A stretch of DNA of 24,917 nt from a virus, in IMG/VR virus record IMGVR_UViG_3300033141_001478, positions 11,152 to 36,068 of that record; one strand, written 5' to 3'. Both the position numbers and the translations under genes were made by a program. Positions 3,378-16,049 of this stretch are shown piece by piece (positions within the stretch are counted from its first letter, which is position 1; every line of letters begins with the position of its first letter). The notes beneath the pieces are model-generated. The model was given only the letters and a program-made list of their open reading frames with translations, was not told where the DNA came from and searched no databases.

Positions 3378-4010
3378 CTAAGAACGCCTGATTAAATCCA
3401 GGCGCTCGGTTTGACGAGCGTTCTTAGAAAGAATCTGCTCTCTTGTGTTAGTATGAACCGGCCTTAAAACCCTAAATGTATCAGATTCCAGCCAGTCTAA
3501 AAGCTCATTTAATTTATCATTGTCATTTAAGTCTTCGGTTTTCATTACAAATATAGAAGCAGGGTATATTTTCCTGACCTCATGCTCTAAAAACCGGTAT
3601 CTTCTTACAGTTTTTACAATCGCGTCTTTGGTTTGACCGGGCGAATCGTAAGGATACCCTTTCCAGTCGTTATGCTCAAAACTTTGGAGCTTCGGGTTCA
3701 TGTATGACCAGAAAGACTCTATGACCTTGTCATCATCCCGAACAATATTAATAGCTTTTGCGTTCGGTATTTTCCGAAGGATAAGGTCGAGATAATTAAT
3801 CCAGTAATATCCAATATCACCTATAACCCGACCTTTCCTTCCGAGAAATTTACGGATTGCAATTTCTGTATCCGTAAAGGCTTGATACCACCCCAAGGGT
3901 ACTTGCTCATGTGACACCTCCCAACCCGACTGAAGATCGAGAAATGCCGCAAGGCTTTGAGTTCCACAACGGCCAGTACCAAAACCAACAATAACTTTGG
4001 TTACGTCCAT
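3378..4010 (-). CDS. Sulfotransferase-family enzyme (phage moron)
   Basis: A 210-residue cytoplasmic enzyme of the sulfotransferase fold, which moves a sulfuryl group from PAPS to a hydroxyl or amine. Two motifs support this: the N-terminal phosphosulfate loop GFGTGRCGTQSL (residues 9-20), and the 3'-phosphate-binding segment INIVRDDDKVIESFWSYM with R91 and S99 in the canonical R-x7-S spacing. The tail residues fit the usual alpha/beta layout. I chose the ATG at 4010 rather than a TTG at 4031: the protein then begins just before the core strand (MDVTKVIVGFG) and overlaps the upstream stop by 10 bases. Substrate is unknown; host surface glycan, a virion protein or a metabolite are all possible. 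Its place inside the capsid operon is unusual and suggests late expression. Confidence 0.8.
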   Translation of the reverse strand: MDVTKVIVGFGTGRCGTQSLAAFLDLQSGWEVSHEQVPLGWYQAFTDTEIAIRKFLGRKGRVIGDIGYYWINYLDLILRKIPNAKAINIVRDDDKVIESFWSYMNPKLQSFEHNDWKGYPYDSPGQTKDAIVKTVRRYRFLEHEVRKIYPASIFVMKTEDLNDNDKLNELLDWLESDTFRVLRPVHTNTREQILSKNARQTERLDLIRRS

Positions 4011-4936
4011 GCAGTAGCAGTTCCAGGCCAAGCAATACTTGAAGTATTGTCCTGGTCAACACCGTGACAATCAATACAATAAGACACCGTTAAGGCAGAT
4101 GCCGGGACCGTATTGTTTTTGTTACTGCCGTATCTTTCACCAACAAACACCCCAACTGTTGAGCCATCGATAGCAACACATAGCCCAGTTGTCGTATCAA
4201 GGTTAATCATCAGATTATCCTTAAATAAAGGTGTGCCGGTCAAAGCCGTAGCATCACAATCAAAAATAGCTGCCGTAGCAGCCATTACAATAGAGTTGCC
4301 AACAACGGTCATATCTACACACTCACCGGCAGTAAACACCAAACTTTCAGTACCACTTCCAGTATAAAGTTTAACCTCGTTGTTAATGAACGCAAAATAA
4401 CTTGCGCCGGCAGCAAGGTTTACACCTTCTTCAAGTTCTTTAGCTGCGGATGCGTCAGTCCATCTACAATTCTGGATCGTAAAATAGTCGCCGTCCGCCG
4501 ATACATCGAACGCACCATCGACATTAGCATAGTTGTTATATAGCCAAAGATTGCTGAAGGTTACGTTCGCAGCAGTTACATCTACATCAGCCGTGTCTGC
4601 GGTATCCCACACAATCTTAGCCTGCTTGCTTCCACAACCAGTTCCGAGTATGGTTACGCCAGCAACGTCACAAGTCAAATCACCAGCAGCGCTGATGTTT
4701 TCGATATGACCCGGCTTCACCATAATTATGTCACCCCTATTAGCAACACACCTGCTCATGCAGGAATCAATAGAAGTGTCTGGGTTCTTAAAAGTACCCC
4801 TTCCCGGAGAGCTTGCGTTCTCATCTACCCAAAACACGTTCCCGGGGTTTGCCATGTATAAAGGAACGCCACGAATTGTAATCCCGTGATTAAAACCACC
4901 AGGATAATGTGACATCCTCGGTAAAATTGTTGCCAT
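4001..4936 (-). CDS. Right-handed beta-helix virion protein
   Basis: A 311-residue protein with a strong ribosome site (AGGAGG, 6 bases before ATG 4936). The N-terminus NPGNVFWVDENASSPGRG followed by GDIIMVKPGHIEN is the usual entry to a pectate-lyase-like parallel beta-helix. Repeating short strands follow: DVAGVTILGTG, AANVTFSNLWLYNN, DYFTIQNCRW, YFAFINNEVKL and DMTVVGNSIVM. The 'V.....F.nl.l' and 'y..i.nn' ladders are coils of the helix. No catalytic residues can be assigned, so it is more likely structural (decoration, tail or base protein) than an enzyme. It is the first gene after the capsid gene and is separated from it by a pair of RNA hairpins. Its stop overlaps the start of the sulfotransferase gene. 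Confidence 0.7.
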   Translation of the reverse strand: MATILPRMSHYPGGFNHGITIRGVPLYMANPGNVFWVDENASSPGRGTFKNPDTSIDSCMSRCVANRGDIIMVKPGHIENISAAGDLTCDVAGVTILGTGCGSKQAKIVWDTADTADVDVTAANVTFSNLWLYNNYANVDGAFDVSADGDYFTIQNCRWTDASAAKELEEGVNLAAGASYFAFINNEVKLYTGSGTESLVFTAGECVDMTVVGNSIVMAATAAIFDCDATALTGTPLFKDNLMINLDTTTGLCVAIDGSTVGVFVGERYGSNKNNTVPASALTVSYCIDCHGVDQDNTSSIAWPGTATAWT

Positions 4937-5007: not shown

Positions 5008-5889
5008 TTAAGCTCCACCGCCGTTAGATACTACGCCACGATAATCACTCCATCCAAAGCTGTAATAATCATACGTAAACGCCTTTAGATTTTGCGTATC
5101 ATGATCATTGTCCTGCTTCAGATCAAAGCTATAACGCTGATAATGCTTCATGCTGTCGGGACAATTAGTCCTGATGAAGAACGCATCCGAATCACTAAAA
5201 TAATGATTCAGTTTAATGCCATCAGGAAACGCATTAGTTGACCTTAAAACATTGGTGGCATTATTCGCAGTATCGTTCTGCAAAGTGCTCTTGAGAATGC
5301 GATTTGCCTCGAACCAATCGCTCCTATGGACATGAACACTTCGAGGCATAAGACCGATTTTCAGTCCTGCATCATCGGTCATGCCAGCAATCATGATCCA
5401 CATATCCTCAAGGGCCGCCTCGGAAATATCAGCGGCAGGATCGAGCTTATTGCTCTGATCCCCGATTGCAGATGGATGGTCGGTAGCGCAAAGGGTTTTA
5501 CCATCGCCACCGGTGTACCCAGCGGTGTGAGCACGGTTATAGACATTAGCAGCAACATTCTCTTTGGTCTGGCGCTTAGAAAAACCAAGAGCCTTCGCGC
5601 GAGACGAAGCCACCTTTTTATACAGGTTGTTTAATCTTTCCTCGAACGTTACAATAAAACCTAAAGAATAGGCCACATGCACATATCGAGAAACATAACC
5701 CTGCACCTGTCCAGTATAAGTTGTGGGTTTGCCCTGTTCTTTAATGGGCATTAATCCAAAACCTTTTAACTGAACATCCTCTTCCCAGGCCTGCTCGGAA
5801 CTGAAAGTTTCAAACAGGTCTTTATATTCTTCGGGATGTTCGCCATAGCCAACGCCGAACCACGCTTTAACTCCGGGCCACATCGCTTT
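5008..5889 (-). CDS. Major capsid protein, exon 2 (Mu gpT-like)
   Basis: Exon 2 encodes 293 residues of the major head protein, starting KAMWPGVKAWFGVGYGEHP. The pattern 'WPGVK.WFG..Y.EHP.EY.DLFE', then QAWEEDVQLKGFGLMPIKEQG, VSRYVHVAYSLGFIVTFEE and KQTKENVAANVYNRA-type helices, is that of the Mu gpT-like HK97-fold capsid family. Read alone, an ORF could begin at an ATG at 5892, but that ATG has no ribosome site and its G is the last base of a group I intron. The true start is 273 bases upstream in exon 1 (6163-6195). The spliced protein has 304 residues and begins MTTPIFTGSHP-KAMWPGV, matching the usual N-terminus of the family. The gene sits directly after scaffold and minor head genes, as expected. 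Confidence 0.85.
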   Translation of the reverse strand, partial: KAMWPGVKAWFGVGYGEHPEEYKDLFETFSSEQAWEEDVQLKGFGLMPIKEQGKPTTYTGQVQGYVSRYVHVAYSLGFIVTFEERLNNLYKKVASSRAKALGFSKRQTKENVAANVYNRAHTAGYTGGDGKTLCATDHPSAIGDQSNKLDPAADISEAALEDMWIMIAGMTDDAGLKIGLMPRSVHVHRSDWFEANRILKSTLQNDTANNATNVLRSTNAFPDGIKLNHYFSDSDAFFIRTNCPDSMKHYQRYSFDLKQDNDHDTQNLKAFTYDYYSFGWSDYRGVVSNGGGA

Positions 5890-6162
5890 CATTGTGTTCA
5901 GGTAAAGTCGCTAATTTTACCCCGCCTTTCGGCTGCTGCATGTTACCATGCAGATCGGACTATATCTTTATCCTGACAATTCAGGATAGGTGCCGCTTCC
6001 ACCCGCTTGGGTGTACTTCCTTTCGGAATAGTCTCTGAAGGTTTTTAGAAGCATAAAATTTTTGTGCTTCTAAACTTCCCTGCTGATTGTCCTTTTTAGG
6101 ATTTTCCAGCAATTCAACACCTGTTTACTTACAAGTTGCCTTGTAAGGCCCCTAAGCTACTA
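5890..6162 (-). ncRNA. Group I self-splicing intron in the capsid gene
   Basis: A 273-nt intron with no ORF, read on the minus strand. P1: exon 1 end CCCU (6166-6163) pairs with the guide GGGG (6152-6149), leaving the expected U-G pair at the splice site. P10: intron GCUU (6157-6154) pairs with exon 2 AAGC. P2: an 8-bp hairpin with a GCAA loop (6128-6147). P3: GGUGU with ACACC. P4-P5-P6: the GCUGGAAA ... AAUCAGCAGG core plus an AU-rich hairpin. P7: GACUA (6033-6029) with UAGUC (5962-5958), inside UCAGAGACUA and AAGAUAUAGUCC. P8: UAUCCUGA/UCAGGAUA. P9: CUGCAUG-GUAA-CAUGCAG (5936-5953), then two more 3' hairpins. The last base is G (5890), as required. I assign it to group I, probably an IA-like subtype; the subtype is less certain. 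Confidence 0.92.
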
Positions 6163-6195
6163 AGGGTGCGACCCTGTAAAAATAGGTGTAGTCAT
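6163..6195 (-). CDS. Major capsid protein, exon 1 (11 residues)
   Basis: ATG at 6195 opens MTTPIFTGSHP, then the frame meets two stop codons (TAG TAG) as the first intron codons. It has a strong ribosome site (AAAGGGGGG just before TTTATG), unlike the exon 2 ATG at 5892. 'TPIFTGS.P' directly followed by 'KA.WPGV' is the normal N-terminus of this capsid family, so joining 6163 to 5889 restores the protein exactly in frame. Start overlaps nothing and lies 12 bases after the stop of the upstream gene. Confidence 0.85.
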
Positions 6196-6207
6196 AAAGC
6201 CCCCCTT

Positions 6208-6819
6208 TTATGCGCCCGTAACGCCAAGGTATTTACCCGTAGCGTTCTCTTGTGTATTAAGCAGCACTTCCCAGATCGCATTATCCCCAAGCTCATTGTC
6301 AGGCATACTTGCAATGCCCACAATAAGCAGGGTGTTGGACTGGTCAGCAGACGGCCCGGTTGTCGTGCCTTCGTCAAGATTAAAGCCCGACAGTCCGGTC
6401 GTAGTATCCCCGCTTGAAGTTGCGATAAGCACGGCATTCGCACCTATCCAATTCTTAGAGGGAGTTCCACCACCGTCACCCCTGACATGGTAAACCACTG
6501 TAGGATCACAGCAAACATGGGCAATCCTTTCTGTAGAAGCGGGATTATACTGTTTAGTGAGATCGCTATACAGCGGATCAAAACTAACGATTACACCCCA
6601 GATAATGGTGCCGTCAGTTCCACCAGACTTATTAATTGTTATATATTTTCCAGTCGTATCCCTTTCCGCCGTAGTCGGTGAAATCAGGACAGGATCGCCA
6701 ATAAACAACGCTGTTGCGTAAGACGAGGAAATATAACAAGGAACCGTAGCACCATTCCAGGGAGCACCGTTTATATGGCGTGCTGGTCTTAAACCAAACG
6801 CACCAGATGGATTAGCCAT
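6208..6819 (-). CDS. Phage structural protein upstream of major capsid (possible decoration)
   Basis: A 203-residue protein. The ATG at 6819 has an excellent ribosome site (AAAGGAG, 9 bases upstream), so I prefer it over a TTG at 6825. N-terminus MANPSGAFGLRPARHINGAPWNGAT is a widespread phage pattern ('MAN..G.FGLRPVR..nGaPwnG'), followed by YISSSYATALFIGDPVLIS. The 'GDPV' loop and the beta-rich, Gly/Thr-rich remainder suit a small beta-barrel capsid accessory, like decoration or cement proteins coded beside capsid genes. It has no membrane segment or enzyme motif. It sits between the zinc-finger protein gene and capsid exon 1, within the same operon. Location in the virion is inferred only. 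Confidence 0.65.
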   Translation of the reverse strand: MANPSGAFGLRPARHINGAPWNGATVPCYISSSYATALFIGDPVLISPTTAERDTTGKYITINKSGGTDGTIIWGVIVSFDPLYSDLTKQYNPASTERIAHVCCDPTVVYHVRGDGGGTPSKNWIGANAVLIATSSGDTTTGLSGFNLDEGTTTGPSADQSNTLLIVGIASMPDNELGDNAIWEVLLNTQENATGKYLGVTGA

Positions 6820-8283: not shown

Positions 8284-8589
8284 TTATTCCTCTATAATTG
8301 CACAAACATCCTTATCATTACAAAGCCTATACTTTTCTCTCTCGCCGTTATCCTCAATCGTTATTAGACTACCAGCATAACGATTAAATATAACTTTGTC
8401 GCCTATTTTTGGAACAGGACCAGGCAGTTTGTCAAAAAACCCCTCGCCCACCGCCATAATTTCTCCGCGATCAACAGCGTATTGCTGTCTGTCACGGGTA
8501 TGGTCAGGGATAAATATCCCCCCCGCACTTCTATCATCCACTTTTTCGGGTTTTATCAGCACCTTATACTCTACTGGTTTAACTTTCAT
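8284..8589 (-). CDS. GroES-like co-chaperonin (Cpn10 family)
   Basis: A 101-residue protein of the chaperonin-10 family, the lid that closes GroEL and allows large proteins to fold. The family signature is clear: 'KVLIKPEKVDDRSAGGIFIPD' (compare 'RVLVK..e....s.gGI..P'), then GEIMAVGEG, KIGDKVIFNRYAGS (compare 'vG D.V.f..y.g') and ICAIIEE-like C-terminus. The mobile loop, which contacts GroEL, would be DRSAGGIFIPD. Length fits GroES (about 97). Ribosome site AGGAGA is 8 bases before the ATG. Phage T4 (gp31) and others carry such proteins to fold their capsid protein; location beside scaffold and capsid genes fits that. This would likely pair with the host GroEL. Confidence 0.88.
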   Translation of the reverse strand: MKVKPVEYKVLIKPEKVDDRSAGGIFIPDHTRDRQQYAVDRGEIMAVGEGFFDKLPGPVPKIGDKVIFNRYAGSLITIEDNGEREKYRLCNDKDVCAIIEE

Positions 8590-8815: not shown

Positions 8816-10694
8816 ATTCCGCTTTAAACCCCTCAAGTAATAGTTTTAAATGTTCCCTATAAATATCAAGCTGTTGCCCTGCCTCTTGCGCTTCAGCCTT
8901 TGCAATGTGCTCCTCTGCCTGCGCTACAAGTTTAGCGATCTTAGCGTTTCTTTCCTCGCTCTCAAATCCAAACTTCATGACTTCAAACTCGAACTTGGCT
9001 TTTTCCAGTTCTAGCTTTTGCATTTCTACCTGAATTTTTGGATCGATCGGAGGTGGAGGCGCCTGTAAAAGTTTTTCTGGTTCGGGTTCCTGCATAGCCT
9101 CGGCAAAACGTTTATTGATTTCAGCGTCATTAAATCCCTGCCCCTTCATGCTCATCCATATTTGACCCTTGATTAGCTTTTGAGTGTTTGTGGTTTCATT
9201 CGGATCTGCAACCGGTAAAACATCACAGGTATCAGGGTTGTAATCGTCTTTCGGAATAGCCATTTGTGTATCAAGAACGGTAAAATAATTTACAGGCTTA
9301 AGATACTGGCTGTTCAAAAGAAATAATTTCTTATATTCGCTCTTAAAGGCCCTATAAAGCCGTTTATGAATAGATGAGAAAACCTTTAACCCTTGCTCTA
9401 TTCTTGCCAGAGTTGTAGTGGGACGCTCGGCCTCGTTGCTCTGAGCGCCGGTTAAAATCTCGGTCACAGAAGATAGCTTCTCACCGGCCTGCACCATAAA
9501 TCCCAACAAGTTAAACAACACTAAAGACGGTTCCTTTACAGGCAGCGGAAAAATGTTTTTTCTTAAATCATCTCCTGTAAATCCAACCGGTTTCCACTCG
9601 CCAGGTGAAAACTCAAGGTTGCCGCCGCCGCGGCCACGGCCAAGTTGAATGCCCTTGCCCAAGAATCCACCGTTAAGGTTATAAAGCGTGCCGCTGTCTA
9701 ATAACTGGTTGATTGTTGTGTTGATGGTTTTGTTGATGGGGGACAATAACCCGCCAAACCCCATATCATAAATACTGCCGGAAATTGATGGGAGAAAAGC
9801 AAATTTGGTAAAATACTGATCGGGGGCAATCTTTAATATTCTGCCCTTATACGTACGCTCTATGCTTTTAACCCCAAACCTTGCTACAATACGTGCTATT
9901 TGTTTGGTATCTTTATGGAAAGTGATGATATAGGGTTCTTTGTACCCGTCATCATCAAGATCGTACCATGTGTGCTGTTCGAGAAATATATGTTCCTGGT
10001 CGGGATCCCTTGCCACAATCTCTTGATCTTCGGCTTTAGTGCTTGACGGTGTGCCGTAGTCCTTGTTTAGAAATATATTCGCCCTGATTCTTTCTTCAAT
10101 TTCGTTCGGGTATAATGTAAAGGTGTCTGTAATTCTTGGCGCTGTCGCCATGTTTTTAGCGTAATAATTTATAACAATGTCGCTCGCCCTTTTAAACTCG
10201 CTTACGTTGCGCTGAAGGTTGCCGGAAAAATAAGTCTTTTTAAAGGCACAACCGATAATGGGTATGTAAGTCAGCAGTTTATCGGTGTCCTCTTCCCATT
10301 CTTCCATTTCATTTAAGCATTGATAAGACATGTGCTGCCCGATTCTCTGCGCTCTTTGCGCTTTCAATCCTTGAGGGTCTTCACCAATAACAAGACCTTT
10401 TACAACATCTGGGCCTTTTACAAAATTCGGGTACGCCCTTGCGGCAAACTGGATTGATCCGATGCCTATAAGGGGATATTTGACATTCGCGGCGTTCTGA
10501 AACGGAAAGTTTTTTTCTTCCCAGACCTGCTCAGCCAGTTCCATAGCTTCTTTATTCTTCTTTTCCCAACCGCTGCGGCTTTCTTTATCAATATCATACC
10601 CCGTATCAACAGCCGTTGCAATATCGGCAAGGGTTTCATCGTCCAATATTCGGGCAATGTTAATATTGTTAACAAGTTTTTCGATGTCTTTCAT
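8727..10694 (-). CDS. Portal protein (P22-like)
   Basis: A 655-residue protein forming the dodecameric ring through which DNA enters and leaves the head. Family marks include the N-terminal helical region, LYPNEIEERIRANIFLNKDYG, a central DLDDDGYKEPYIITFHKDT beta region, the stem segment (GSIYDMGFGGLLSPINKTI), and TTLARIEQGLKVFSSIHKRLYRAF in the wing-to-crown part. The C-terminal 150 residues are a long Glu/Lys/Gln coiled coil, like the barrel helix of P22 portal. Length fits P22 portal (725 residues) allowing for a shorter barrel. Start at ATG 10694, ribosome site GAGGTTGGG close upstream. It lies after the large terminase gene with one small gene between. A small gene overlaps its 3' end. 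Confidence 0.87.
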   Translation of the reverse strand: MKDIEKLVNNINIARILDDETLADIATAVDTGYDIDKESRSGWEKKNKEAMELAEQVWEEKNFPFQNAANVKYPLIGIGSIQFAARAYPNFVKGPDVVKGLVIGEDPQGLKAQRAQRIGQHMSYQCLNEMEEWEEDTDKLLTYIPIIGCAFKKTYFSGNLQRNVSEFKRASDIVINYYAKNMATAPRITDTFTLYPNEIEERIRANIFLNKDYGTPSSTKAEDQEIVARDPDQEHIFLEQHTWYDLDDDGYKEPYIITFHKDTKQIARIVARFGVKSIERTYKGRILKIAPDQYFTKFAFLPSISGSIYDMGFGGLLSPINKTINTTINQLLDSGTLYNLNGGFLGKGIQLGRGRGGGNLEFSPGEWKPVGFTGDDLRKNIFPLPVKEPSLVLFNLLGFMVQAGEKLSSVTEILTGAQSNEAERPTTTLARIEQGLKVFSSIHKRLYRAFKSEYKKLFLLNSQYLKPVNYFTVLDTQMAIPKDDYNPDTCDVLPVADPNETTNTQKLIKGQIWMSMKGQGFNDAEINKRFAEAMQEPEPEKLLQAPPPPIDPKIQVEMQKLELEKAKFEFEVMKFGFESEERNAKIAKLVAQAEEHIAKAEAQEAGQQLDIYREHLKLLLEGFKAEYGNQRRGLGTMEGRPGNKGTVSSPEGTAG

Positions 10695-10701
10695 CCCAAC
10701 C

Positions 10702-10926
10702 TCAATTTATTATTTTCATATCGGGCACAACGATTTTTGACTGTCTTTGCTTTACAATGGTATGAATAACGGCCTGTTCCGCCTTGCACATTATCTCCCG
10801 GAACATCAGGAAATTGTGGAACGGGCCAGTAACTTGAACAGAACCATCCCCCTTCGCTGTTATTGTGAGCTCGGCAACGATTTTTTTTGCGCCCTTTCTG
10901 AGCTTTTTTGCCTTTTTTTGACTCAT
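10702..10926 (-). CDS. Small hypothetical phage protein between terminase and portal
   Basis: A 74-residue protein beginning MSQKKAKKLRKGAKKIVAEL, so with a very basic N-terminus, followed by GSVQVTGPFHNFLMFREIMC and KAEQAVIHTIVKQR. The core (a beta pair then helix, 'V.GP..N...f..imckAe.av') recurs in small proteins beside phage portal genes. I take ATG 10926; a TTG at 10932 is less likely. A ribosome site (AAGGA) is about 10 bases upstream. A longer, different-frame ORF at 10691-11005 overlaps it, but this one shows better protein-like composition. Stop TGA lies 7 bases before the portal start. Function unknown. Confidence 0.6.
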   Translation of the reverse strand: MSQKKAKKLRKGAKKIVAELTITAKGDGSVQVTGPFHNFLMFREIMCKAEQAVIHTIVKQRQSKIVVPDMKIIN

Positions 10927-11006
10927 CCCCAAATATCCTTCCGTACTTTTGCCTATATTTATGATTGGTTGTCTTGTGATTTCTACACATTAAGTTCTCA
11001 GCCATT

Positions 11007-13583
11007 TTAATACCCCGTTATTGCGTCTCTACCCATATAAGCATATCTGGGTTCGTCATATTCAAAAAATGGCGCGGGTTCTTCCCACTTGGTGTTTAAT
11101 AAGCAAAGACGATACAGGTTTTCCATCATATCATCTTCGTCCTTGGAAACCTTTTGGGTGTTTTCGTCCCACATATAACCCTCGATTTCCCGGATTGTTC
11201 TTATTAAATCGTTAAAAAAGAATATCGAGGGCTTCTTGTTCGGCCCCATCAAGTGTTTTTTCACCTCAAGGATGCCTTGCTCCTTATCCTTGGTCGCGGT
11301 CTCAAGAATAATACCTTTACCCATTAAAATCCTTGAAATAATCTCGTACATCGATTCAGGGTTGTTAGAATCACCTTTTGCTAACGGGTCTATAATTACC
11401 CTGTTTACACGATAAGAGTGGTAGTTGACCGACCTTAAAATAGCTTCCGCTATCCATTTCGCGTCCCCATGATCCCAGATTTCCTCGCAAACATACCTGT
11501 CATTGCGAGGATCGGTCGCAATAAATAAAATCGCCTGCTTCTTACGAGGATGCACATCAATTGCAATATCAACCATCCAATCAAGCGGTATCTGAAACCG
11601 TTCAACCAAATGAGTCTTGCGATTATACTGAGGATAAATCAAGCCCGACATGTAAGACGGTATGCCGTGAATACGGGCCTCGATCTCATCTTCGTTCAGC
11701 AAAGACTTGTATTGCTCAACACCCTCTTCGTTAATCCCGTACCCGACATTAGACCAAATATCGCCGGTTACGTTAAAAACAGACGGGTCGGGCCGACCAT
11801 CATCTAAGGTTTTCTTGATAACCTCTCTGTCAACCCAGGCCTCCTTTAAAAGAGTCATACAAAACAACTCCCTGCCGTTCCGGTCTATCAACCCCCTCGC
11901 ATTCGCAACCCTGACATCGCGCTTGGGCGGCTCATCATAGCAATTACTTACCTGCATGCATTCACAGATAAAATTATGATTACCTTCAATAGTAAGGTCA
12001 TAAACCCGTGCAACCCCGGCAGGTTCAACAGATTTAACCTTGTGATATTGTATGCCGCGACGATGATTTTTTTGGCCTGGCATTAAATTGCTTCTGGCTT
12101 CAACTCCCCATGAGCAACGATTTATTTTACCCAAATACCGTTGATTAGCACCCTCAAGAGCAACCGCCAAATTTTTTCCAGGTACAAACTGCAATAAATC
12201 AATAAGCCTGGCGACAGATCCGCTTTTGGAAATATTTAAAAACCATTGATCTCGCCAAACACCAACCTTTTGACTTTTCTTAAACTGTATAGTAGAATGA
12301 ATGCCCAAACTTCTTAAAAGTTTGTGAAAATCTCGTACCAATCTTTCAGACGTCGAACCATAGCCAATACAACTTTTTATTGCCCACCCATCAGTTGCCA
12401 ATAATCCCTTAATAAATTCGATCTTTTCGTCTTTACAAAGAGTAAAAATCTCATCAGGAATAAACTTTTCGTAAGCTTTTTTCCCAGTCAATCCCAACTT
12501 ATTAAGCAACTGATACAAAATCCCATTAGAAGGCTGAATTTCATAATCATACTTTTTGCAATGCACTAATTTATAACCATTTAGTAAACCATCCCTAACA
12601 TAATCCAAAAATTCATCGCTTGCAGATGCAAGAAAAACCCTCTTTTTATCACTCCACCCATCCCCAATCCACGCACCAACAAAAAACAACAAGAATTTAA
12701 AAAGTTTATAAAAGTCGTTTCGGTTGGTGTCGTCTATTTCAACTAATGGGCAATAAACTTTGTCACCACCTGTTAATCTGCAAGCGGCCTTTTTCTTGTC
12801 TCGCGGGTTGTTATTTTTATTAGCTCGAATATAAATTTCATGATCTGGCGTACAAAGCAGTGTGATCCCACCACGCAAAACAACCCTAACAATTTTTTTG
12901 AACCCATTATCAATGACATTTAAGACCTTATGTTTACTGCGAACATGACCACCGCAAGTAGTCCATACTTCTTCGCCAACACATATATCCTTAATAGGCT
13001 TCCAAATCCCATTACCCATTAAAACACGCTGGTTTTCCTCAATACATACCAAATCACCAGACCACCCCTCGTGAAGCGCGCTCTCCTGTAAATTGCTCAT
13101 GATTTCAAGGGTAGAACCAGTTTTTTCATCCGTCCATAAGGCCTCTACGCCCTGGTTGTTCTTTTTCGTCTTTAACTTCCGGCTCTTAGGCCACCATTTC
13201 CATAACTCTGGAATCAAAACAGATTTTACATGCTTTTCCCAGTCCTGACCTATAATCCGTACCTTGCGAGGCTCGGTATGCCTAAAATGTAGCTTGGTGT
13301 TGTTCCACAAAAACTTGCCAAACATAACACTAAAACCAATCAGGGTCAGCAAAACTGTTTTGCCAATCCTGTTAGCTCCCGTGTATGTGAAAACCTTTAA
13401 GTTAGGATTTAACCAAGCATCTAATAACTCGGCCTGCAACGGATTCGGCCCAGGATTCGGCGGCGTGTCAAAAAACTCTATCCTGTTTGACTGCCGATAC
13501 GATTGAATCTGTAACTGAAGCTCCGCACGCTTACGTGCTAACTTCTCATACTCGGCTGATTCCTCCTTGGTCGGCTTCTTCAT
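11007..13583 (-). CDS. Terminase large subunit with intein
   Basis: The 858-residue precursor contains a terminase ATPase-nuclease split by an intein. The exteins (residues 1-179 and 548-858) give a mature protein of about 490 residues, the normal length. Walker A: GANRIGKT (69-76). Walker B is rebuilt only after splicing, from SGDLV joined to CYDEPP, giving hydrophobic residues then DEP. The C-terminal RNase H-like nuclease part includes DIAIDVHPRKKQAI (around 672-685) and RVIIDPLAKGD (around 728-738), where the metal-binding acidic residues should lie. The motor cuts and pumps DNA into the head through the portal. ATG 13583 has only a weak ribosome site, and an RNA hairpin lies just upstream. 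The unspliced protein should be inactive as an ATPase. Confidence 0.88.
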   Translation of the reverse strand: MKKPTKEESAEYEKLARKRAELQLQIQSYRQSNRIEFFDTPPNPGPNPLQAELLDAWLNPNLKVFTYTGANRIGKTVLLTLIGFSVMFGKFLWNNTKLHFRHTEPRKVRIIGQDWEKHVKSVLIPELWKWWPKSRKLKTKKNNQGVEALWTDEKTGSTLEIMSNLQESALHEGWSGDLVCIEENQRVLMGNGIWKPIKDICVGEEVWTTCGGHVRSKHKVLNVIDNGFKKIVRVVLRGGITLLCTPDHEIYIRANKNNNPRDKKKAACRLTGGDKVYCPLVEIDDTNRNDFYKLFKFLLFFVGAWIGDGWSDKKRVFLASASDEFLDYVRDGLLNGYKLVHCKKYDYEIQPSNGILYQLLNKLGLTGKKAYEKFIPDEIFTLCKDEKIEFIKGLLATDGWAIKSCIGYGSTSERLVRDFHKLLRSLGIHSTIQFKKSQKVGVWRDQWFLNISKSGSVARLIDLLQFVPGKNLAVALEGANQRYLGKINRCSWGVEARSNLMPGQKNHRRGIQYHKVKSVEPAGVARVYDLTIEGNHNFICECMQVSNCYDEPPKRDVRVANARGLIDRNGRELFCMTLLKEAWVDREVIKKTLDDGRPDPSVFNVTGDIWSNVGYGINEEGVEQYKSLLNEDEIEARIHGIPSYMSGLIYPQYNRKTHLVERFQIPLDWMVDIAIDVHPRKKQAILFIATDPRNDRYVCEEIWDHGDAKWIAEAILRSVNYHSYRVNRVIIDPLAKGDSNNPESMYEIISRILMGKGIILETATKDKEQGILEVKKHLMGPNKKPSIFFFNDLIRTIREIEGYMWDENTQKVSKDEDDMMENLYRLCLLNTKWEEPAPFFEYDEPRYAYMGRDAITGY
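11943..13046 (-). mobile_element. Intein with LAGLIDADG homing endonuclease in terminase
   Basis: A 368-residue protein intron, precursor residues 180-547. Block A: C180 followed by IEENQRVLMGNGIWKPIKDI. Block B: TLLCTPDHEI with the T-x-x-H pair (T245, H248). Block F/G: RVYDLTIEGNHNFICEC and the C-terminal VSN, followed by C548 of the extein. The usual penultimate His is replaced by Ser (546), seen in some active inteins. Between lies a LAGLIDADG-type endonuclease: the two helical motifs are FVGAWIGDGW (301-310) and FIKGLLATDGW (390-400). It is inserted in the Walker B motif of the terminase, a conserved site where inteins often sit. Homing to intein-free terminase genes is the inferred role; activity is not proven. 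Confidence 0.93.
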
Positions 13584-13816: not shown

Positions 13817-14398
13817 TTACCCCCGCTTCTTCGATTTCCCACCCTTGGGCATGGGCCGGAAAAATGGGTCGGATTTAATGGGCTTCGCCTTCTTTTCCAC
13901 CTTTTTTACCCCCCGCTTTTCCAAAACAGGCCAAACAGGAATTACACCGCTGTCCTCTCCACCAGCACGATGCCAACGCATATGATCAGAATGATCCTTA
14001 AATACCATTAAATTCGATACCTCGTTGTTCAAGGTGTTTCCATCAATATGATGCACTACATGACCCTCTGCTAATGGGAAAAATTCCTTGACAACCCTCC
14101 GAGCCTCACGCTGACCATTACGATTCTCAGTGTATCCAAGATTGTGAAGGGCTTCGTAATAACACTTGGAACTGCAATAATTTAACCGAGTATTCCGAAT
14201 CTGATACCGATGCCTCCGAAAAACCTCACCACAACCCTTACAAACTACCTCCCACTTGCACTTCCCCGTGTCAATACCACGAGCATTTAACCACTTCTTG
14301 ACCGCCTGCCTCGTAACTCCAAAAAAATCCCCAATCATCTGTAAACTCTGTAAATCCTTGAACCATAACTCAATCGCCCTGTCATCTATCTTCGCCAT
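13817..14398 (-). CDS. HNH endonuclease with HTH and zinc ribbon
   Basis: A 193-residue nuclease with three parts. Residues 15-40 (LQSLQMIGDFFGVTRQAVKKWL) form a helix-turn-helix. Residues 50-80 hold a zinc ribbon: C53-x2-C56 and C75-x3-C79. Residues 111-145 are the HNH core: HVVHHIDGN with H116/H117 and D119, then N124/N125, N129, and the final H136...H143. This layout occurs in free-standing homing endonucleases of phages and in HNH proteins beside terminases that help packaging. I chose ATG 14398, which has GGGAGG 8-10 bases upstream, rather than the longest reading from 14473. A good sigma-70 promoter lies at 14427-14455. It could mobilise the nearby intron or intein in trans, or act in packaging; I cannot decide. 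Confidence 0.82.
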   Translation of the reverse strand: MAKIDDRAIELWFKDLQSLQMIGDFFGVTRQAVKKWLNARGIDTGKCKWEVVCKGCGEVFRRHRYQIRNTRLNYCSSKCYYEALHNLGYTENRNGQREARRVVKEFFPLAEGHVVHHIDGNTLNNEVSNLMVFKDHSDHMRWHRAGGEDSGVIPVWPVLEKRGVKKVEKKAKPIKSDPFFRPMPKGGKSKKRG

Positions 14399-14426
14399 AA
14401 TATACGCCCTCCCTGTCTTTCTATGG

Positions 14427-14455
14427 AGCATATACCAAGGTTTACAAAAAGTCAA
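14427..14455 (-). promoter_or_regulatory. Sigma-70-type promoter for HNH/terminase genes
   Basis: On the minus strand, -35 TTGACT (14455-14450) and -10 TATGCT (14432-14427) are 17 bases apart. The start would be about 30 bases upstream of the ATG at 14398. Matches are 5/6 and 4/6. It would add transcription of the packaging and head operon. Confidence 0.6.
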
Positions 14456-14471
14456 CATAAAGTTTACACTC

Positions 14472-14484
14472 AAGGGTGACCCTT
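14472..14484. promoter_or_regulatory. Operator-like palindrome upstream of the HNH promoter
   Basis: AAGGGTGACCCTT is a 13-base palindrome (odd centre), located 17 bases upstream of the -35 box. The core GGGTGACC appears again at 16094-16101, near the divergent control region. A regulator shared by both sites is possible. Confidence 0.4.
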
Positions 14485-15599: not shown

Positions 15600-16049
15600 T
15601 TATGTAATATTAAGCTTTTTTACTCGATATCTGAATGTTCTAAATGATATTCCAAGTAATTGTGCAGCTTTTTGTTTGTGTCCACCCGTCAAATCTAACG
15701 CTCTCTTAATATAATTTATTTGGATATCATTTATCATTTCATCTAAATCAATTCCACCAGTAATCATTTCCTCATTTGATGTATATTCTACATCAAAATC
15801 TGGGTCCGAATTTTCAAATATAAAGTTTTTTATTTCTGCAGAGGGCCTGAACCATTCTCCGCGTATCAAATACTTTTTAAATTTTCTATGTAATTCTTTT
15901 TCTTTATTAATATTACCCTCCATTACACCTATGAGTGTTAATAGTTCTGGAGACCCTACCTGTAATTCACCCATACGATCTTTAATATTATTTTTACTAT
16001 AACCAATCTTTATTGCACCTTTTTTTCCCGATCGAATAAAATAAATCAT
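15600..16049 (-). CDS. GIY-YIG-like (T5orf172) domain fused to Fis-type HTH
   Basis: A 149-residue protein in two parts. Residues 1-75 resemble the T5orf172/MUG113 branch of the GIY-YIG nuclease superfamily: MIYFIRSG...AIKIGYSKN (a GIY...KIG pair), then R25, LQVGSPELLTLIGVMEGN, E52 in KELHRKFKK, and GEWFRPS. A linker rich in Asp/Glu follows. Residues 111-148 are a Fis-type helix-turn-helix (IKRALDLTGGHKQKAAQLLG then FRTFRYRVKKL), the domain at the C-terminus of NtrC-type sigma-54 activators. It lacks the AAA+ domain of such activators, so it cannot itself open a sigma-54 promoter. A strong ribosome site (GGAGG) precedes ATG 16049. The gene is divergent from a sigma-54 promoter, so it may regulate it. 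Nuclease activity is unproven. Confidence 0.8.
   Translation of the reverse strand: MIYFIRSGKKGAIKIGYSKNNIKDRMGELQVGSPELLTLIGVMEGNINKEKELHRKFKKYLIRGEWFRPSAEIKNFIFENSDPDFDVEYTSNEEMITGGIDLDEMINDIQINYIKRALDLTGGHKQKAAQLLGISFRTFRYRVKKLNIT

Follow-up and report, generated by a model that had tools for sequence, protein, structure and literature searches.

Where does the major capsid protein of this uncultured phage begin? Mechanical ORF calling starts it at an ATG at position 5892 of the window (the whole 24,917-nucleotide stretch analysed here), and such a start costs the protein its conserved first 11 residues. The alternative is that a group I intron interrupts the gene on the minus strand after codon 11 and that the missing residues are encoded upstream. 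The gene would then be laid out as follows.

6198..6215, minus strand: ribosome-binding region of exon 1, AGGGGGG just 5' of the ATG at 6195
6163..6195, minus strand: exon 1 of the major capsid gene, 33 nt, MTTPIFTGSHP, equivalent to the N-terminus of about 100 intron-less relatives
5890..6162, minus strand: group I intron, 273 nt, no endonuclease gene; boundaries from P1/P10 and relatives
5890..5890, minus strand: terminal intron G (omega G); the same G completes the ATG at 5892 picked by gene callers
5008..5889, minus strand: exon 2 of the major capsid gene, KAMWPGVKAW...; PHROG 371 major head protein

On the minus strand the 5' junction reads ...AAAAGGGGGGCTTT ATG ACT ACA CCT ATT TTT ACA GGG TCG CAC CCT / TAG TAG CTTAGGGG... 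and the 3' junction reads ...CTGAACACAATG / AAA GCG ATG TGG CCC GGA... Joining 6163 to 5889 yields a capsid protein of 304 residues. The relatives used for the splice-site comparison were the best 80 of 524 IMG/VR matches, and among these the N-terminus M..TG.HP-KALWPG was unbroken at about 75 loci. It was also unbroken in most of 25 loci from bacterial genomes, many of them Gluconacetobacter, giving about 100 intron-less relatives with the layout of the spliced window protein, MTTPIFTGSHP-KAMWPGV. The closest capsid relatives among the best 80 matches (L002-L006, 69-76% amino acid identity) have no intron. This comparison is strong evidence for the splice sites; the 4-bp P10 pairing is weak evidence by itself, since random pairs reach 4 bp 7% of the time. 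The original prediction had placed the intron after 11 codons with exactly these splice sites and had expected splicing to produce a gpT-like N-terminus, and both points are supported by the Rfam match and compensatory pairs described below and by the restored N-terminus.

The identity of the protein was examined with sequence profiles and a structural model. PHROG 371 (major head protein) matched the window protein (E = 4.5e-7) and all 35 relatives compared. The Pfam family Mu-like_gpT (PF10124) was found in 32 of 35 relatives (best E = 5.8e-12). Several relatives from named phages carry the annotation major capsid protein. The AlphaFold2 model (pLDDT 85) had HK97-fold phage capsids and encapsulins as its top PDB matches (E of about 1e-10 to 1e-8). 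Sequence comparison returned no solved structure related to the protein. Together these results identify it as a Mu gpT-like (PHROG 371) capsid protein with a predicted HK97 fold. Alignment to capsid families, which the original prediction had suggested as a check, succeeded for PHROG 371 and, among the relatives, for the Pfam gpT family, but the window protein alone fell under the Pfam cut-off (15.4 bits against 20.1).

When all Rfam families were searched with Infernal (cmscan), the group I intron family RF00028 scored 114.1 bits (cut-off 50; E = 2.4e-29) at positions 6172-5936 on the minus strand, a match that covers the full model (positions 1-253). No second Rfam match was found in the window or elsewhere in the 36-kb record. 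The folding energy of the intron was -93.2 kcal/mol compared to a mean of -64.9 for shuffled sequences (z = -6.4), and none of 200 shuffles was as stable. All of the pairings that the original prediction had named (P1, P2, P3, P7, P8, P9 and P10, with a terminal G) could be drawn, as could the rest of P3-P9 including P7.1, P7.2, P9.1 and P9.2; one candidate P6a pair failed to form. The main elements are listed here.

6149..6166, minus strand: P1, in which CCCU/UAG pairs with UUAGGGG (the internal guide), with U.G at the splice site
6154..6157, minus strand: guide half of P10, GCUU, pairing with AAGC at 5888-5885 of exon 2
6043..6075, minus strand: P6a hairpin; P6/P6a is the place of the GIY-YIG endonuclease gene in sister introns
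6029..6033, minus strand: P7 5' strand GACUA, guanosine-binding site, pairing with 5962-5958; invariant in nine introns

Introns of the same type in related phages, described below, allowed these pairings to be examined by covariation. Two of them, L094 and L096, do not differ in ribozyme sequence and count once; the nine distinct introns aligned are therefore that of the window and eight sisters. In this alignment 49 of 77 pairs had changed on both sides and 89% of cells were paired (the counts for P6a come partly from trimmed endonuclease ends and are to be disregarded). None of 500 shuffles and none of six slid versions came near the observed covariation. P3 covaried while P4 and P7 were invariant, as expected of helices that belong to the catalytic core; P8 aligned more poorly (70% of cells paired). 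The P1 U.G at the 5' splice site was present in nine of nine, the last base was G in all, and P10 matched the site of its own intron over 3-8 bp (4 bp for the window intron, 8 bp for L094). The sequence evidence supports assigning the element in the capsid gene to the group I introns, and its conserved core suggests that it would be catalytic.

The signals for translation are at the upstream ATG. In the 20 nt upstream of the exon 1 start (6195) the Shine-Dalgarno duplex energy was -11.2 kcal/mol, whereas the ATG at 5892 had a value of +0.3 kcal/mol, the weakest of 14 gene starts checked in the window. The first intron codon in frame with exon 1 is a stop (UAG). Because 5892 has no ribosome-binding site and the unspliced frame stops at the first intron codon, capsid production very probably depends on splicing. 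It had been anticipated that a gene caller would choose 5892, with the last intron base as the G of its ATG, and the ORF list does start there. That in-frame ATG at the 3' splice site, used by ORF callers, is what would favor reading the intron as a decayed relic, with the capsid protein made from 5892 without splicing and exon 1 reduced to a dead upstream peptide. We regard this as extremely improbable, given the difference in Shine-Dalgarno strength, an intact catalytic core and the conserved N-terminus that would be lost. Moreover, TAG, AAG and GGG all occur at the ends of sister introns, and L082 and L085 have the ATG in another frame, which argues that the ATG at 5892 is not a kept start. 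The idea that it is a selected second start was rejected on the same comparison and for its lack of a Shine-Dalgarno sequence.

We therefore return to splicing. With high confidence, we consider the element a td-like self-splicing intron at HP/KALWPG of the capsid gene and most likely an endonuclease-less member of a family of homing introns that target this motif. We take it to be group IA, from the general features of that group rather than from a subgroup model. In the proposed pathway the intron would fold within the capsid mRNA, and P1 would bring the U that ends CACCCU to the guanosine site. The guanosine bound there would attack after this U (6163), and the freed exon 1 would then attack after the terminal G (5890), with exon 2 held by P10, to give the 304-residue capsid protein. 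A ribosome on unspliced RNA would halt at the UAG and release an 11-residue peptide.

Introns of the window type interrupt the same gene in nine other sampled phages, and their four insertion sites lie no more than 25 nt apart. Sister splice sites were placed by P1, P10 and the restored protein, and sites are given relative to that of the window.

Same site as the window: L094 (307 nt), L096 (842 nt), L109 (partial)
Site +7 nt: L058 (853 nt), L082 (839 nt)
Site +8 nt: L084 (807 nt), L085 (793 nt), L086 (783 nt), L089 (806 nt)
Site +25 nt: L106 (847 nt), a locus in the record of L037

Two of these are IMG/VR relatives (L058 and the record of L037). Further sisters came from a DNA pattern that links the P7 strand with the WPG codons TGGCCNGG. 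L058 and L087 belong to a single record, and L101 is a repeat of L084; each was counted once. In every full-length sister intron the guide sequence fits its own exons through P1 and P10. A search for same-site introns with an exon 1/guide pattern returned none besides L094 and L096 except chance matches, and the candidates L149 and L150 were rejected as such. Hits of the pattern scans at L095, L104 and L110-L115 had no capsid match and were also put down to chance. The scans touched a second, unrelated family of small proteins (exon 2 WPGVQSVE..., about 85 residues), in which a similar group I intron lies directly before the TGGCCNGG codons (loci L083, L088, L090-L093, L097-L100, L102, L103 and L105). 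This family, which had no PHROG match, is possibly a tail or other structural protein.

The sister introns differ from that of the window in what they encode. Related GIY-YIG endonucleases are encoded in P6 of seven sister introns, and the window intron and L094 are without one. Full-length sisters other than L094 have an ORF of about 200-250 residues within P6, and these ORFs align mutually at 24-78% identity (BLASTP). Pfam GIY-YIG was found in four of the five scanned; the fifth, L106, was shortened at its first ATG and its full frame aligns to the other sister ORFs. There was no ORF of at least 60 residues inside the window intron, in agreement with the claim that it has no endonuclease gene of its own, and only a short loop is present at P6/P6a. 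How such a copy can arise is illustrated by L094, which equals the L096 intron over 307 of 307 nt minus one clean 535-nt endonuclease deletion between short AAAT repeats; endonuclease-less copies do therefore arise by deletion among these introns. From this we infer that the window copy lost an endonuclease. Of the endonuclease-bearing copies found, none is close to the window intron, the best core identity being 72%.

I-TevI and other intron endonucleases of the GIY-YIG type recognise long sites, and their cut falls 23-25 nt away from where the intron inserts (PMC2988022). With a long site and a distant cut, the insertion point could shift by a few bases while the motif recognised stays the same. 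In the relatives, the P6 endonuclease would cut a gene that lacks the intron, and repair of the cut would copy the intron into it; the family as a whole is presumed to be active in homing.

Whether the introns instead go back, without homing, to a common ancestor of all capsid genes of the gpT-like type and have since disappeared from most lineages can be judged from the capsid tree (114 rows). The four introns at the +8 site form one capsid clade (support 100), as such descent would predict, and show that short-term vertical descent occurs. Over the tree as a whole, intron-plus and intron-minus alleles are scattered, requiring at least six changes. The insertion points are four, and the core of the window intron is closer to introns at other sites, L082 at +7 (72%) and L106 at +25 (71%), than to the same-site L094 and L096 (64%). 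Inheritance without homing is therefore very unlikely, and the pattern is, as far as the sequences tell, one of horizontal spread with some vertical descent.

Several other genes of the window were noted. The large terminase gene (11007-13583, minus strand) contains an intein (Pfam Intein_splicing and LAGLIDADG_3), placed by eye at about 13046-11943 between the extein residues SGDLV and CYDEPP; one phage thus carries both an intein, in its terminase, and an intron, in its capsid gene. A free-standing HNH_3 endonuclease ORF (13817-14473, minus strand) adjoins this terminase gene. The ORF at 15600-16049 (minus strand) has a T5orf172/MUG113 (GIY-YIG-like) domain fused to a Fis-type HTH_8. A GroES-like co-chaperonin (8284-8589, minus strand; Cpn10, E = 3e-16) is near the portal gene, and a sulfotransferase-like ORF (3378-4031, minus strand; PF13469) lies inside the structural gene cluster.

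The HNH ORF raises the question of whether the window intron never had an endonuclease and was moved in trans by a free-standing nuclease, as trans or collaborative homing has been described for T-even and related phages (PMC2988022). The presence of such an ORF in the same record is in keeping with this. Its position is not: it neighbors the terminase gene and is separated from the capsid gene by about 8 kb. The relatives, moreover, carry their nuclease at P6/P6a, where the window copy has a short loop. The T5orf172 ORF was considered as the trans endonuclease and rejected because it did not match the sister endonucleases significantly. On balance we think movement in trans unlikely and prefer a homing intron whose own endonuclease was lost.

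The L094 and L096 loci (3545-3851 and 10283-11124, respectively) bear on what such introns may do to the gene. Their introns and about 500 nt upstream are identical, yet capsid exon 2 is only about 80-85% alike at the DNA level, and the sequences are identical again beyond the gene. Exon 2 appears to have been swapped, with the breakpoint at the intron, and this pair suggests a crossover role for the intron in the exchange of capsid exons. We offer as a tentative model, somewhat more likely wrong than right, that the first 20 or so codons of gpT-like genes are a hot spot for one family of GIY-YIG homing introns, in which the site slides over 25 nt, the guide re-adapts at every new site and the shared sequence serves as a crossover for exchange of capsid exons among phages.

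Introns in phage capsid genes are already known, and the window intron adds one more case. Mycobacteriophage LittleE (Cluster J) has a probable group I intron in its major capsid gene, with splicing in infected cells shown by RT-PCR and N-terminal sequencing (PMC3706429), and a capsid-gene group I intron of lactococcal phage Tuc2009 is mentioned as a citation in that paper. As in the window, LittleE has intron-less sister phages and splicing restores a conserved protein; it differs in its 819-bp insertion, its LAGLIDADG-like endonuclease and its unrelated phage group, whereas the window intron is 273 nt, lacks an endonuclease and follows codon 11 of a gpT-like gene. Group I introns are frequent in phages, and hundreds of INPHARED records contain sequence similar to the window intron; no near-identical phage was found there. 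Among named phages, the td introns of PspYZU05 and T4-like phages gave the best-scoring DNA match, 75% across the 3' half of the window intron. Like td, the window intron has P7.1/P7.2 and P9.1/P9.2, and its sisters have a GIY-YIG endonuclease in P6; unlike td, which sits in thymidylate synthase, it has a different host gene and guide sequence. Foley et al., in 2000, reportedly described introns and their deletion derivatives in the lysin gene of Streptococcus thermophilus phages (cited in PMC8541194). These recall the L096/L094 pair, since in both cases a group I intron of a late gene occurs alongside derivatives with deletions; the gene and the host differ. Introns can also be numerous, as in the Jug phages, which average 18.5 group I introns per genome (PMC12363816). 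A search of the open-licence literature brought up no account of introns in capsid genes of the gpT-like type, and the new part here is the set of related introns at four nearby positions of one capsid gene.

These results have consequences for annotation and for intron biology. The error made at 5892 is likely to recur in other phages with short first exons. The locus suggests that, beyond the phage lineages already known, a late protein required in very large amounts can be placed behind a ribozyme. Ten intron-bearing phages, with and without an endonuclease and with four sites in one conserved motif, form a small natural series well suited to testing how introns home, how endonucleases are lost and how the guide sequence is retargeted.
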